Virus record (IMG/VR): IMGVR_UViG_3300037189_014295
Location: 1-35,684 of that record
Origin: a virus
Strand: one strand, 5' to 3'
DNA: 35,684 nt
Position 1 is the stretch's first letter. The number at the start of each line of letters is the position of its first letter. Positions 22,124 through 28,771 of the stretch are shown in pieces. A program made the position numbers and the translations under genes. The notes under the pieces were generated by a model that was not told where the DNA came from, searched no databases, and saw only the letters and a list, made by a program, of their open reading frames with translations.

Positions 22124-22594
22124 ATGGAGAACGAGTTCATTGATGACTTGTTTGCTGACGTGGATAAGTTTTATCCTGGAAGTAAACGTAAGCGTCGTGA
22201 ATCTAAGCAGCCAGAGATTATTTCAACGGTTGGTTGGGACGCTAAGCCTTACATCAAGACATTACCTAACGGATTAGATGTTGAGATGTTTACCATCGGG
22301 GCTTTGGCTAATGCGCTTGGTAGACCAATACCAACCATACGACTGTGGATGAAAGAGGGAAACCTTCCCCATTCACCATACAGGCTCCCAACAAAAAAAG
22401 ATGTACATGGCAATGACCACGCTGGTCGCAGGCTTTACACAAGGCCTATGATTGAAGTAGCCATGGAACTATTTACGAAGGCTGGACTTATGAACGGCAA
22501 GCGTATAGAGTGGTCACAAAACCGTCAGGTATCAAAAGAGCTTGACGAGGCGTGGAGCAATCTACGCGAAGCCGACAAACTATCAAAGGAATGA
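22124..22594 (+). CDS. MerR-like helix-turn-helix DNA-binding protein
   Basis: This 156-residue protein starts at ATG 22124. Residues about 55-110 have a MerR/excisionase-type winged helix: MFTIGALANALGRPIPTIR, then LWMKEGNLPHSPYR and GRRLYTRPMI. The N-terminus is basic (GSKRKRRESK). There is no obvious effector domain. It may control transcription or act as an accessory DNA-bending protein. It is followed by the zinc-containing candidate ssDNA-binding protein. Confidence 0.72.
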   Translation: MENEFIDDLFADVDKFYPGSKRKRRESKQPEIISTVGWDAKPYIKTLPNGLDVEMFTIGALANALGRPIPTIRLWMKEGNLPHSPYRLPTKKDVHGNDHAGRRLYTRPMIEVAMELFTKAGLMNGKRIEWSQNRQVSKELDEAWSNLREADKLSKE

Positions 22595-22595
22595 A

Positions 22596-23288
22596 ATGAC
22601 AACAAACAAGACAGTACCATCTGCTGACAACTACATCGTTGAAGAGAGTGAATTCTCTGTCGATGAACGTCCAGCGCAAGCAACAAGCACATCATCAGTT
22701 GTTGCCTCAGGTTGGGATGCAGCCGACCTAGCAACACCACAGCAATCAGAAGGTTTTCCTACTGAGTACAAGCATTCTGAGCAACCACAGGTTGTAAAGT
22801 TCTTAGACCAAAATGGTCCATTTGCAGTATTCAAGTTGCACTTCTTAGCAGGAAAGCCTGGCAAAAAGTCTTACCTTTGCCTAAACACAAATGGTCAGAC
22901 TAACTGCCCACTTTGCTCAGTTCTACACCATAAGCCAGAAGATAAGAAAGCATTTTCTGTTGTTAATTTTTCTGCAGAAGGTGGTCCACAGCGCCAGATT
23001 CTTGTCGCAACACCACGTTTCTATAAGAACCTACACCTTGCCCACTTCTCACCACAGGGTCCTCTAACAAAGAACTACTGGTCAATTTCACGCACTGGCA
23101 AGATGCAAACAACCGTTTACCACATGCAGGCTATTAAAGCCCGTGACCTCTCAGAAGATTGGGCTCCGTTAAACGAGACCGATTGTGAGGCCTTCGTTGC
23201 TACCGCAACACCATTCGAGGCTTCGCTTTACCGCGAAACACCGTATGCAGAACTTCTTGAGATTGCACAAGAACAGCTCGGTAGTTAA
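22596..23288 (+). CDS. Zinc-binding protein, candidate ssDNA-binding protein
   Basis: The protein is 230 residues from ATG 22596, six bases after AAAGGA; the frame is open further upstream but ATG 22596 fits best. Residues 1-55 are disordered. A single zinc site is likely: C95, C104, C107 and H111/H112 (CLNTNGQTNCPLC then HH), set in a beta-rich core (FAVFKLHFL before; KKAFSVVNFS after). It ends with helices. It lies directly before DNA polymerase, where a phage often encodes its ssDNA-binding protein, and T4 gp32 also has a zinc site. The assignment is inference. Confidence 0.5.
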   Translation: MTTNKTVPSADNYIVEESEFSVDERPAQATSTSSVVASGWDAADLATPQQSEGFPTEYKHSEQPQVVKFLDQNGPFAVFKLHFLAGKPGKKSYLCLNTNGQTNCPLCSVLHHKPEDKKAFSVVNFSAEGGPQRQILVATPRFYKNLHLAHFSPQGPLTKNYWSISRTGKMQTTVYHMQAIKARDLSEDWAPLNETDCEAFVATATPFEASLYRETPYAELLEIAQEQLGS

Positions 23289-23290
23289 CG

Positions 23291-23296
23291 TATAAT
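23291..23296 (+). promoter_or_regulatory. Candidate -10 box (TATAAT) ahead of DNA polymerase
   Basis: A perfect TATAAT lies just after the upstream stop codon. A start about 7 nt later would fall at the first base of the 23304 hairpin. No good -35 is at 16-18 bp (TTGCAC at 23263 is 22 bp away), and there is no TGn extension. It is plausible but weak. Confidence 0.4.
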
Positions 23297-23303
23297 AGAG
23301 AAT

Positions 23304-23366
23304 ACTGAAGAGGCTTCGGTTATCCCCTTTCTTGAAGCCTCTTCAGTCTATTAAGGGGAAATAGAC
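23304..23366 (+). promoter_or_regulatory. Two-hairpin leader with complementary loops over the DNA polymerase ribosome binding site
   Basis: Hairpin 1: ACTGAAGAGGCTTC (23304-23317) pairs perfectly with GAAGCCTCTTCAGT (23334-23347), with a 16-nt loop containing TCCCCTT (23323-23329). Hairpin 2: GTCTATT (23346-23352) pairs with AATAGAC (23360-23366), with loop AAGGGGA (23353-23359), which includes the Shine-Dalgarno. The loop sequences are perfectly complementary over 7 bp. The start GTG is the next base. The stems overlap by 2 nt, so hairpin 1 would lose two outer pairs. There is no T-run, so it is not a standard terminator. This is probably a translational operator. Confidence 0.7.
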
Positions 23367-25343
23367 GTGGCATTAATTCTTACAAAAGAAGCCTTAAATG
23401 AAATGGTTTCTTATTACCTAACACAAGATGCTTTTGCATTTGACATTGAGACAATGGGTGAAGACGCCCTGCTGACCCCAATCAATACCGTTGTATGGAT
23501 TACTTTATCTACTTACGGTCGTACAGATGTTATTCCAATGGGGCATCCAAACGGTGAGTACATAGAAACTTTACGCCCATTAACTGGTCAGGGACAAAAG
23601 AGAGTGGATGCTGGATTACCTGCACGACCAAGTGATTATTCAGTAAGCGATAAGTTAGCAACTAAACTTTTTAGTGAGCCACCTGCGCAGCTTTTTCCCG
23701 CAGAAGTTTTTAACGCATTAAAACCTTTATTTTTTAACGAAGACATTTTAACTATTGGTCACAATTTAATCTTTGACCTTTGCTCTGTAACTAAATACTT
23801 TGGCGGTGAGGTTCCAGTAGGGCCTTATTTTGACACCATGGTTGCTTCTTTTATTTATGACAACCGCAACAAGGGACGTTGTAGTTTAGACGAGTGCCTT
23901 AAGCGGGAGTTAGGGTACGAAATGGTTAAGGGCGTTGGTAAAGCTATTAATAAGTTTTCTTTTTCTGAGGTTCAAAAGTACGCGTATTTAGATGCAAAGT
24001 ACACATGGGAACTGTGGAAGAAACTAATACCAAAACTGGAAGAGGCTAAAGTTACTAAAGTAATGGCACTAGAGATGGATGTCTTACGCGTTCTTTGCGA
24101 CATGAAGTTAACTGGCGCACTTATTGACCAAGTCTCTTTAAAGCTTTTACACGACCAGTTAGAGATTGACATTGACTTAAAGCGTGCTGAGATTTATAAA
24201 GCAGCTGGCCGTCATTTTAATATTAACTCAATTCCAGAGCGTCAAGCTTTGTTATACAAGCCTAAGGCAGAGGGTGGTCGAGGACTGAAGACATCAATCA
24301 TGACCGTTAAAGGTAAAGATAAAAAGATGAATTCAGAGCAAGAGATTGTTTACACAGATTACTCCACCTCAGCAGAAGCACTTGCTGAGAACGCTGGCAA
24401 AGACCCACTTGCTAAGTTACTTGTGGAGTACGCAGATTTAAATAAGTTGATGACTACCTACGTGATTCCTTACTTAGGCGGGGATGTTACTAAGACAGTT
24501 AACGGTACTTCTAAGATAGAGACACGAGAAAGTCTGCTTATTAACGGACGCATTCATTGCGACTTTGTGCAGATTGGCGCAGAAACTGGACGTTTCTCTA
24601 GTAAGAATCCTAATCTGCAGAATGTTCCCAACCCAGCTACCGCCCATGGTAAGGCTATTCGTAATCTGTTTATTTCCCCCAAAGGATACAAGTTAGTGGT
24701 TGCAGACTACTCACAGATTGAGCCACGCATCATTGCGTCTATGTCAGGTGACCCAATTATGTTAGAGGCATATAGAAACAAAGAGGATATCTATACTGCT
24801 GTTGCTAACACGATGGGAGTTAACCGCGCCGCTGGTAAGACTTTGGTTCTTGCTATGGCTTACGGTGTAGGCCCAGATAAAATTGCAAGAAGCATTGGTT
24901 GCAAGCTTAAAGAAGCACGTGACCTGTTGTCTGACTTTGCCGAGAAGTTTTCTTCTATTGGCCTTTACAAGTTAAAGGTTATCGGTATAGCTAAGAAGAA
25001 CCGCTACGTTACAACCGTCACGGGTCGCCGTCGTTACCTTCCAGACATAGTTTCAAGGGACCGAGACCGTCAAGGCACAGCAGAGCGCCAAGCGTTTAAC
25101 ACCGTTATCCAAGGCACTGCAGCCGACATCATGAAAATTGCCATGGTCAGGGCACATAAAATGATTCCCAAAGAAGCTAGACTGCTTCTTACCGTTCACG
25201 ACGAACTTGTTACTATGACTCCAGAACACCTGACCGATGTAACCGTTAAAGCAATTAGAGATGCTATGGAGGATATTCACATGTTAAAGATTCCTTTAAT
25301 TGCAGACATCACCGTTGTTGACCGTTGGGGAGAGGCAAAATGA
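23367..25343 (+). CDS. Family A DNA polymerase with 3'-5' exonuclease
   Basis: This 658-residue protein has GTG 23367 eight bases after AAGGGG. The exonuclease domain has FDIETMG (D26/E28), IGHNLIFDLCSV and YAYLDAKYTWEL. The polymerase domain has motif A VADYSQIEPRI (D447), the O-helix RAAGKTLVLAMAYG (K491, L495, Y499) and motif C TVHDELV (H611/D612). The O-helix position usually Phe or Tyr (E. coli 762) is Leu, a variant known in many viral polymerases. It has no 5'-3' exonuclease. It is the replicative polymerase of this phage and sits behind a structured leader. Confidence 0.95.
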   Translation: MALILTKEALNEMVSYYLTQDAFAFDIETMGEDALLTPINTVVWITLSTYGRTDVIPMGHPNGEYIETLRPLTGQGQKRVDAGLPARPSDYSVSDKLATKLFSEPPAQLFPAEVFNALKPLFFNEDILTIGHNLIFDLCSVTKYFGGEVPVGPYFDTMVASFIYDNRNKGRCSLDECLKRELGYEMVKGVGKAINKFSFSEVQKYAYLDAKYTWELWKKLIPKLEEAKVTKVMALEMDVLRVLCDMKLTGALIDQVSLKLLHDQLEIDIDLKRAEIYKAAGRHFNINSIPERQALLYKPKAEGGRGLKTSIMTVKGKDKKMNSEQEIVYTDYSTSAEALAENAGKDPLAKLLVEYADLNKLMTTYVIPYLGGDVTKTVNGTSKIETRESLLINGRIHCDFVQIGAETGRFSSKNPNLQNVPNPATAHGKAIRNLFISPKGYKLVVADYSQIEPRIIASMSGDPIMLEAYRNKEDIYTAVANTMGVNRAAGKTLVLAMAYGVGPDKIARSIGCKLKEARDLLSDFAEKFSSIGLYKLKVIGIAKKNRYVTTVTGRRRYLPDIVSRDRDRQGTAERQAFNTVIQGTAADIMKIAMVRAHKMIPKEARLLLTVHDELVTMTPEHLTDVTVKAIRDAMEDIHMLKIPLIADITVVDRWGEAK

Positions 25344-25849: not shown

Positions 25850-26198
25850 TTGGTGGGCAAGCAAACTCGGTGGTCAGCCAACCACCACATCAGCACCAGC
25901 ACAGGCATCACCGCAATATCAGATGCCACAATCACAGCCAGTTCCAACACAACAACCACCGTTCATACCATCACAACAACAATCATCTCGTTGTCCTGGT
26001 TGCGGTAGCGGTAACTATGGCGGAACCACTGAGTCCCGTCCACGTTGTTACGATTGTGGTTACCCAATTCAACAATCAGGCAGCGGTGTTGGTAAGGGAA
26101 TTACAGGCGGACCACAAGCAACAGGTCCAACTCAAGCAGCAGTACAAGTGCCAACGGGCGGTTGGAATCCACAAGGAATCATTGGACGTATTGAATAA
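25839..26198 (+). CDS. Gln/Pro-rich protein with a zinc ribbon
   Basis: This 119-residue protein starts at ATG 25839 within the upstream gene. Residues 1-45 and 80-110 are rich in Gln, Pro, Thr and Gly and look disordered. Between them lies a zinc ribbon, RCPGCGSGNYG and RCYDCGY (CPGC then CYDC). The C-terminus ends WNPQGIIGRIE and shares bases with the recombinase start. It may contact nucleic acid or a replication partner; the function is unknown. Confidence 0.65.
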   Translation: MSSNWWASKLGGQPTTTSAPAQASPQYQMPQSQPVPTQQPPFIPSQQQSSRCPGCGSGNYGGTTESRPRCYDCGYPIQQSGSGVGKGITGGPQATGPTQAAVQVPTGGWNPQGIIGRIE

Positions 26199-27259
26199 TG
26201 AAAACATCAGGAGCATTACTAAAAGCAATTAACGGCATTAATAAAAAACTAGGCGATGACACAATTGTTAAAGCTTCTGATGTTAGAAAAGATGTAGCAG
26301 CAAGGTTTCCAACAGGCTCCCTTGCATTAGATTGTGCACTTGGTGGAGGTTGGCCAGTCAATCAATGGCATGAATTAGTTGGGGAAGCTAGTAACGGCAA
26401 AACTGCTATTGCCCTTAAAACTATTGCAGCCAATCAAAAGCGCGACCCTGATTTCACAACCGTGTGGGTAGCCGCTGAACAATGGGTGCCATCATATGCA
26501 GAAATGTGTGGGGTAGATACCTCCCGTGTATACGTCATAGCAGATAACAGATTAGAGGAGGCTTTAGATGCCGTTGTTGAAATCGTTCAAACCAAGGATG
26601 TGGATTGCATTGTTATTGATAGCCTTCCTGCCCTCGTTCCTAACGCAGAAGATGAGAAAGAAATGGGCGAGGCAACGGTAGGTCGTGCTGCCCTTGGACT
26701 TAATAAGTTTTGGAGAAAGATTGGTAAGGCGTCACGTAGAAGTTTAGTTCACGCCGAACGCCCATTCATTGGGCTTATGGTCAATCAGTGGCGTTCAAAG
26801 ATTGGGGCATATGGCGACCCTAGAACAACCCCTGGAGGCCAAGGCAAAGATTATGCTTATTTCACCCGTTTAGAGATTAAGCGCGATGATTGGATTAAAC
26901 AAGGCACAGGTTCTGATGCCCCAAAGGTTGGGCAAACCATCAAGGTTAGGGTGTTAAAGAACAAGACAACAGCACCACAGCAGGTAGCTTTGTTGGATTT
27001 TTATTTTTCAAACACCGAGAGATTTGATGCTGGGGATTTTGATTCAGCAAAAGAGATTTTGGCACTAGGTATTATCAATAAAGTCATTGTCCGTGCGGGC
27101 GCGTACTATCGGTATGCCGAACGTCAATGGATGGGGCAGGATGCTATGCTTGCTTCATTGAGGGAAGAAATTGACCTCAAAGAGACACTGGAGAAGGACG
27201 TTCTAAACAGCGTTCTGTTGAACTCAAAATATGTTGCTGAGCCTTCTGATGAAGAGTAA
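26198..27259 (+). CDS. RecA/UvsX-like recombinase
   Basis: This 353-residue protein starts at ATG 26198 in TAATG overlap. Walker A is GEASNGKTA (K68), the catalytic-acid strand is VWVAAEQWV (E94), and Walker B is CIVIDSLPAL (D141). The start FPTGSLALDCALGGG is the RecA-type opening of the core. It would form filaments on ssDNA and drive strand exchange for recombination-dependent replication and repair. A UvsX-like phage recombinase rather than host-type RecA is likely from length and divergence. The resolvase gene overlaps its end. Confidence 0.9.
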   Translation: MKTSGALLKAINGINKKLGDDTIVKASDVRKDVAARFPTGSLALDCALGGGWPVNQWHELVGEASNGKTAIALKTIAANQKRDPDFTTVWVAAEQWVPSYAEMCGVDTSRVYVIADNRLEEALDAVVEIVQTKDVDCIVIDSLPALVPNAEDEKEMGEATVGRAALGLNKFWRKIGKASRRSLVHAERPFIGLMVNQWRSKIGAYGDPRTTPGGQGKDYAYFTRLEIKRDDWIKQGTGSDAPKVGQTIKVRVLKNKTTAPQQVALLDFYFSNTERFDAGDFDSAKEILALGIINKVIVRAGAYYRYAERQWMGQDAMLASLREEIDLKETLEKDVLNSVLLNSKYVAEPSDEE

Positions 27260-27886: not shown

Positions 27887-28771
27887 ATGTCAGTCAAACC
27901 ATCTAGCACTATGAAGAAGTTCTTAGAAGCAGGTAAAGCAGATACTCGAGTATTAGGTAAAGCTGAGCGACATATTCTTAGTCGACCACTTGATACATCA
28001 CGTAGAACAGATGTTCTACATCCATCAGAGATGTCAAAGGTTGCTACATGGTGCCACCGTGCATCTTATTTTCAAATTTTAGGTTACGCCCCACCACCAC
28101 GTAAAACACGCATCGGATTACAGACGCAAATGGTGTTTGATGAGGGCCACTACATTCACGCTAAATGGCAAAAGCTTTTTGCTGAAATGGGGATTCTTTA
28201 CGGTACTTGGAAGTGTTGGGTTAAGGGTTGCACAGCCCGCGAGTGGGGTATGCCTTATCCAGAGTGCCCTAATGGTCACGGACTAATGGAAAACTACGCA
28301 GAAGTTCCATTGTCTTACGCACCTTTACATTTTGGAGGTCACGCTGACGGTTGGATTGTTGGCTGCGGTGAGGGCATGTTGCTTGAAATTAAATCAATTG
28401 GTGAAGGAACCTTCCGTTGGGAAGCACCAGAAATGCTTTACGACAACGATAATGATATTAAAAAAGCTTGGAAAGCTTTAGAAACCCCTTTTACTAGCCA
28501 CATTTACCAAGCACAAATTTATTTAAAGTTGCTTGAACTAATTGACAACCCAGATGCACGCGAACATCCAATTCCCCAACAAATTTTATTTTTGTATGAG
28601 TCAAAAGCAACACAAGAATACAAAGAGTTTGTTATTCCTAAATCAGATTTTGGCATTACGGAAATTTTTGATGCTTGTCAGGTAATTGCTGACTGCGTAA
28701 AGGCAAAAACTCCTCCAGCATGTAACGTACAAGGCTCAGCTCTATGCTCATCATGTAAGGATTACGTATGA
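27887..28771 (+). CDS. Cas4-like PD-(D/E)XK nuclease with extra zinc knuckle
   Basis: This 294-residue protein starts at ATG 27887 behind AAAGGGG. C56 and a C-terminal trio C279, C287, C290 could hold an iron-sulfur cluster, as in Cas4/AddB. The nuclease core has H88/H91, D154 in GGHADGWI, E167 and K169 in LLEIKSIG, and Q208 in YQAQIYL. An additional CCCH set (C110, C115, C127, H131) sits between. Such enzymes process DNA ends. No cas1 or CRISPR array is present, so a recombination or end-processing role is likely. Confidence 0.82.
   Translation: MSVKPSSTMKKFLEAGKADTRVLGKAERHILSRPLDTSRRTDVLHPSEMSKVATWCHRASYFQILGYAPPPRKTRIGLQTQMVFDEGHYIHAKWQKLFAEMGILYGTWKCWVKGCTAREWGMPYPECPNGHGLMENYAEVPLSYAPLHFGGHADGWIVGCGEGMLLEIKSIGEGTFRWEAPEMLYDNDNDIKKAWKALETPFTSHIYQAQIYLKLLELIDNPDAREHPIPQQILFLYESKATQEYKEFVIPKSDFGITEIFDACQVIADCVKAKTPPACNVQGSALCSSCKDYV

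Follow-up and report, generated by a model that had tools for sequence, protein, structure and literature searches.

The junction between the gene for a gp32-like single-stranded DNA-binding protein (SSB) and the gene for a family-A DNA polymerase probably carries a conserved cis-acting leader that would fold as an H-type pseudoknot, sequester the Shine-Dalgarno (SD) region of the polymerase gene and thereby throttle polymerase translation. This leader, found in a viral DNA window of 35,684 nt (the whole stretch that was analysed), is conserved over 93 distinct SSB-polymerase junctions of viral contigs. Comparison of these junctions establishes a hairpin stem (stem 1) acting on the + strand, its location between the SSB and polymerase genes, the complementarity of its loop to the polymerase SD, and the joint loss of the loop C4 and the G4-type SD. 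Upon transcription, a strong hairpin would form right after the SSB gene; its C4 loop would then pair with the G4-type SD of the polymerase, in competition with the anti-SD of the 30S subunit, and polymerase translation would stay low unless something opens the pseudoknot. Pairing of the loop with the SD in vivo and the resulting lowered initiation are what we infer from these comparisons.

In the window, stem 1 consists of 14 perfect base pairs (Table 1; coordinates re-checked on the sequence) closing a 16-nt loop, GGTTATCCCCTTTCTT, at 23318-23333. The UCCCCUU segment of this loop is exactly complementary to AAGGGGA, the SD region of the polymerase, whose GTG start lies at 23367; the coordinates, arms, both loops and GTG position given by the initial annotation all proved exact. 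Loop:SD pairing is calculated at -11.5 kcal/mol vs -7.3 kcal/mol for anti-SD:SD pairing, and the folding of the leader beats 200/200 shuffles (z -3.4). Both strands of the window were scanned for hairpin loops with a complement of at least 6 nt located no more than 22 nt downstream; on the + strand the hairpin at 23304 is the sole match (15 bp including one extension), while 10 first-order Markov (dinucleotide-like) shuffles of the window gave 0-1 such devices with stems of at least 12 bp. Scan and folding together place both the hairpin and the loop:SD complementarity beyond chance. Just 5' of the hairpin, a TATAAT at 23291-23296 is accompanied by no good -35 element at 16-18 nt and may be a coincidence; a transcript starting after it, near 23303, would begin at the foot of the hairpin.

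Table 1. Features of the SSB-polymerase junction in the 35,684-nt window.
Feature	Position	Strand	Sequence or basis
gp32-like ssDNA-binding protein (SSB), zinc motif, 230 aa	22596..23288	+	AF2 model and VIA-align
Spacer from SSB stop to hairpin, 15 nt	23289..23303	+	8-15 nt in 41 C4-loop representatives
Stem 1, 5' arm	23304..23317	+	ACTGAAGAGGCTTC; covariation across 37 representatives
Loop L1 (GGTTA)	23318..23322	+	Sequence
Stem 2, 5' strand (TCCCCTT; loop UCCCCUU, complement of SD)	23323..23329	+	Sequence; C4 kept in relatives
Loop L2 (TCTT)	23330..23333	+	Sequence
Stem 1, 3' arm	23334..23347	+	GAAGCCTCTTCAGT; covariation across 37 representatives
Hairpin 2 of the initial annotation (GTCTATT 23346-23352/AATAGAC 23360-23366)	23346..23366	+	Present in the window and in 97-100% relatives
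Loop L3 (CTATT), linker to SD	23348..23352	+	Sequence; geometry model
Stem 2, 3' strand (SD region AAGGGGA)	23353..23359	+	Loop:SD vs anti-SD:SD energy
Family-A DNA polymerase with 3'-5' exonuclease domain, GTG start, 658 aa	23367..25343	+	PF00476, PF01612, PHROG 17

The polymerase reading frame is assigned through its matches to PF00476 (E 8e-90), PF01612 (E 6e-16) and PHROG 17. The protein encoded upstream has a zinc-type CPLC motif, and its AF2 model (mean pLDDT 76) finds its best VIA-align matches in RB69 gp32 (Z 10.7) and T4 gp32 (Z 10.2), clear of other candidates; on its own, Foldseek had no significant match for this model, and the matches came from VIA-align run over the same candidates. 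Judged by its model, the upstream gene product folds like T4/RB69 gp32, which supports the candidate ssDNA-binding protein of the initial annotation. In the Streptomyces phage LuckySocke, the gene at the position of the SSB is annotated "SSB protein". The two genes share a frame (23286 to 23367, 81 nt), and read-through of the SSB stop codon into the polymerase was rejected because a second in-frame TAA precedes the polymerase start. In the surrounding region, the reading frame upstream of the SSB (window 22124-22594) gives a weak hit to a MerR-type helix-turn-helix that falls short of the curated cut-off, and a UvsX-like recombinase (26198-27259) and a Cas4-like exonuclease (27887-28771) are later genes of the same replication block.

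Relatives were collected from viral contigs by scans with either protein, the polymerase or the SSB, and more than 400 candidate loci matched; among the matches listed, at least 179 loci have both genes and a readable stretch between SSB stop and polymerase start, 93 of which are distinct. Loop:SD counts also run over 93 leaders, namely 91 of these junctions (two very short ones omitted) and two Streptomyces phages. Representative sets comprise 57 leaders for swaps of tails, 52 of the main group (41 with a C4 loop and 11 without) and 37 for alignment, the latter drawn from clusters of at most 80% identity. In nearly all leaders the hairpin starts a few to about 15 nt past the SSB stop, and, among the 52 representatives of the main group, its stem measures 13-20 bp. 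The Streptomyces phages LuckySocke and BRock, whose polymerases are about 39% identical, have a hairpin in the same place with a loop lacking C4. In two other Streptomyces phages, pSt2308 (L326, 153-395) and GiJojo (L327, 156-395), a small reading frame before the polymerase overlaps the polymerase start, so that the leader hairpin cannot occur there in its usual form.

Stem 1 behaves as a real RNA helix of the + strand. Among the 37 aligned representatives, all consensus pairs (10/10) have changed on both sides, the stem sequence being almost wholly replaced among relatives with its pairing kept. The covariation score, which spans the ten pairs of stem 1 and six loop:SD pairs, is 0.633 vs 0.223 after shuffling (0/500 reaching it) and at most 0.205 with slid partners. 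With a strand-neutral helix finder, the median helix score of the representatives is 12 vs 5 in shuffles, and the mismatches within stems amount to 43 G-U vs 2 A-C. A palindromic DNA adjoining a replication gene could conceivably serve at the DNA level, as a cruciform, a replication origin or a protein-binding site, but such a role is scarcely credible given that the element is always located between SSB stop and polymerase start and that the G-U excess reveals selection on the + strand RNA; this asymmetry rules out the opposite strand as well, and the cruciform and the palindromic protein site were rejected on its account. Compensatory changes in the mRNA strand have preserved the stem, as in an SD-sequestering H-type pseudoknot leader.

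The second helix of the proposed pseudoknot pairs the loop with the SD. C4 is present in the loop of 72/93 leaders, a C4 loop with a G4 tail in 58/93, and at least five contiguous complementary nucleotides in 60/93; the usual loop is CCCC or CCCCUUU, followed by GGGG within the SD, and the core C3:G3 is nearly invariant in the alignment of 37 representatives. Around this core, the flanks match by clade: CCCCUUU faces AAAGGGG (L118, L062), CCCCUAA faces UUAGGGG (L064, L094), UAUCCCC faces GGGGAUA (L130) and AUCCCC faces GGGGAU (L083, L102). One leader (L008) has no C4, and its loop ACUUAU has AUAAGU as counterpart at the start codon. Across 57 representatives, a leader's own tail fits its own loop better than swapped tails do (z 4.0 for energy, 4.8 for length); within leaders having both C4 and G4, covariation of the flanks is modest (z 2.2 for length, 1.2 for energy), as C4 facing G4 explains most of the match. 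The downstream SD is calculated to pair more strongly with the loop than with the anti-SD in 37/41 C4-loop representatives vs 0/11 of those without a C4 loop, as in an SD-sequestering pseudoknot.

On the polymerase tree, the loop C4 and the G-type SD disappear jointly in no fewer than three well-supported clades (L048/49/53/61; L074-L111 with L081/L103; L171/178), where the SD takes forms such as AAGGAA or AAGGAG. In independent pairs on this tree the SD goes the way of the loop 2.9 times and the opposite way 0.1 times, a count that is too small for significance (sign test, median p 0.25), and the tree alone cannot separate gain from loss. Clades devoid of any loop:SD match still have the hairpin.

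Several leaders depart from the common pattern in their own ways. In L091 and L092 the loop CCCCUUU is kept and the SD is gone (CCUAAACUAUUUAUG), suggesting a C4 loop that either has survived the loss of its partner or has a different target. The loops of L037, L024, L062, L059 and L072 read CCCCUUUCU, one base off the tail of the 16S rRNA, CCUCCUUUCU; these loops are an anti-SD mimic reaching slightly past the paired part. In L122 and L125, the loop contains a small extra hairpin (GCTG/CAGC) on the 5' side of ACCCCUUU. A YAGR motif (CTAGGT, ATAGACT, CACAGACT) stands about 6 nt before stem 1 in 39/52 representatives vs 24% after shuffling, within the spacer between SSB and hairpin (window 23289-23303 and relatives); it fits a promoter poorly, as transcription would then begin within the stem.

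The initial annotation had described the element as a kissing-hairpin operator, in which a second hairpin (hairpin 2) shows the SD as its 7-nt loop (AAGGGGA, 23353-23359) to loop 1 within the same molecule. This arrangement is perfect in the window and in its 97-100% relatives, and a stem of 5 bp encloses AGGGG in L024; beyond the closest relatives, hairpin 2 appears weakly in a few others. Across the 37 representatives, however, hairpins presenting GGG in their loop show no excess over shuffled flanks, whether stems of at least 4 bp (43% vs 39%) or at least 5 bp (19% vs 14%) are counted. Moreover, hairpin 2 is worth -4.5 kcal/mol, which is weak vs about -15.6 kcal/mol (before penalties) for the loop:SD helix, and the two stems share two bases (23346-23347). 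Kissing hairpins are thus a very unlikely form of the element, in which a conserved second hairpin presenting the SD is not found. With conservation seen for loop:SD pairing and none above chance for hairpin 2, the structure supported by the comparison is an H-type pseudoknot between loop 1 and a single-stranded SD region. What stands of the initial proposal is a conserved leader with a loop that pairs with the SD of the polymerase.

The geometry of the H-type pseudoknot was assessed with a crude A-form rigid-helix model, checked against the known deep-groove distance of about 10 A. According to this model, stem 2 can form beside an intact stem 1 in the window, L024 and L118, and a coaxial form would require the opening of 1-4 bp at the foot of stem 1. 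In members with tight loops (L064, L130), either stem-1 pairs must open or the side-by-side form fails. The warning in the initial annotation that a compact geometry is demanding was therefore fair.

A role unrelated to SD pairing must also exist for the hairpin, which survives in clades that have lost loop pairing; mRNA 3'-end stability, processing, partial termination and protein binding are candidates. This raises the question as to whether the hairpin alone is what is conserved, acting as a 3'-end stabiliser, a processing site or a weak or partial intrinsic terminator of the abundant SSB message, thereby lowering the polymerase relative to the SSB and leaving loop:SD pairing secondary or incidental. 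Such a role agrees with retention of the hairpin where loop:SD pairing is absent and in Streptomyces phages whose polymerases are 39% identical, with a U-rich stretch past the stem in several relatives and with a d'Aubenton Carafa terminator score above 0 in 12/41 C4-loop representatives. The median score is nevertheless negative (-12.2 for C4-loop representatives, -31.5 for the others), and the window itself scores -45.6; a hairpin acting alone leaves unexplained the association of the C4 loop with the G4 SD, the loop:SD advantage in 37/41 representatives and the joint loss. We regard this explanation as rather unlikely, and the SD-sequestering pseudoknot as the better account of the leader.

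A covariance model of the leader, run on 20 whole viral records, gave a single strong match (E at most 2e-8) in each of 16, the remaining records giving weak matches except that of L012, which gave none; the secondary matches read in three records (G002, G004, G008) are not C4-loop devices and were discarded as further copies in the same phages. In a protein-blind scan with the pattern CCCCTTTC-N16-32-TTAAGGGG, at least 29 of the matches listed have hairpins of at least 14 bp, all in loci encoding the same SSB and polymerase, while outside the family at least 8 of the matches listed have stems of just 9-13 bp and at least 43 are without such a hairpin. One of the outside loci (L214) has a 13-bp hairpin upstream of a glycosyltransferase-like reading frame with its own GGGG SD elsewhere, and is a probable coincidence.

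SD-sequestering H-type pseudoknots are known from the SAM-II and preQ1 riboswitches and from the S15 rpsO operator. Like these, the phage leader binds up the SD region in a pseudoknot; unlike them, it belongs to a phage gene, has a very long stem 1 and lacks a conserved ligand-binding core. A metabolite riboswitch of the SAM-II/preQ1 type, in which the SD is likewise the 3' strand of the pseudoknot helix, shares this topology, but no aptamer core is conserved here, sequence being free to vary in the stem and over most of the loop, and Rfam gives no match at gathering threshold or at a meaningful E-value, noise alone appearing at E 0.1-3; a riboswitch is accordingly a highly improbable identity for the leader. 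A search of open-licence papers returned no description of this SSB-polymerase leader element.

Two T4-type operators offer the closest phage parallels. The leader of gene 32 in T4, T2 and RB69 contains a pseudoknot operator through which gp32 autoregulates its synthesis; in T4 this pseudoknot is about 28 nt long, lies about 67 nt upstream of the start without the SD inside, and nucleates protein binding (PMC3014915, PMC535899). The element described here resembles it as a pseudoknot in the leader of a phage replication gene, with a gp32-fold SSB encoded adjacent, and in controlling translation, a control inferred here from sequence. In contrast to the gene 32 operator, the SD itself forms one strand of the pseudoknot, whose stem spans 13-20 bp; furthermore, the element is located not upstream of the gp32-like gene's own start but after that gene and before a family-A polymerase, which sets it apart from the gene 32 type. 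In the T4/RB69 gene 43 operator, the family-B polymerase binds a hairpin of 16-18 nt whose loop has the conserved sequence -UAAC-, with no evidence of a pseudoknot (PMC3014915). Like the present element, it is a leader hairpin of a gene for a phage replicative DNA polymerase, but here the polymerase is of family A, the long stems are unconserved in sequence, and the loop, with a C4(UUU) motif and otherwise variable, pairs with the SD, so that the gene 43 type does not apply either.

Because a gp32-like gene adjoins the leader and T4 genes 32 and 43 provide precedents, feedback by the SSB or the polymerase is attractive: speculatively, one of the two proteins could stabilise the pseudoknot as an operator. 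A specific version, in which the gp32-like SSB or the family-A polymerase would bind the pseudoknot and repress polymerase translation in proportion to free ssDNA, is possible, if doubtful. The sequences point to no particular ligand, and no conserved protein-recognition sequence is found in the stem or most of the loop, the conserved parts being just C4/G4 and the upstream YAGR.

Among cultured phages, the nearest relatives have Streptomyces as host. When the polymerase alignment was searched against bacterial genomes, just distant PolA relatives (25-35%) came up and no host was identified; the host of this large group of uncultured phages is probably to be found among freshwater actinobacteria. 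In these very diverged phages, an SD-trapping pseudoknot absent from Rfam appears to be conserved where the gene for a gp32-fold SSB adjoins that for a replicative family-A polymerase, and would extend the translational control of replication proteins beyond the T-even phages. The element is small enough for a simple reporter test, and its relatives constitute a natural series, in which loop pairing is gained or lost with the hairpin retained, suited to dissecting its function. If feedback by the SSB or the polymerase holds true, this leader would be a second viral pseudoknot in translational feedback, coupling the levels of SSB and polymerase in a widespread group of phages.
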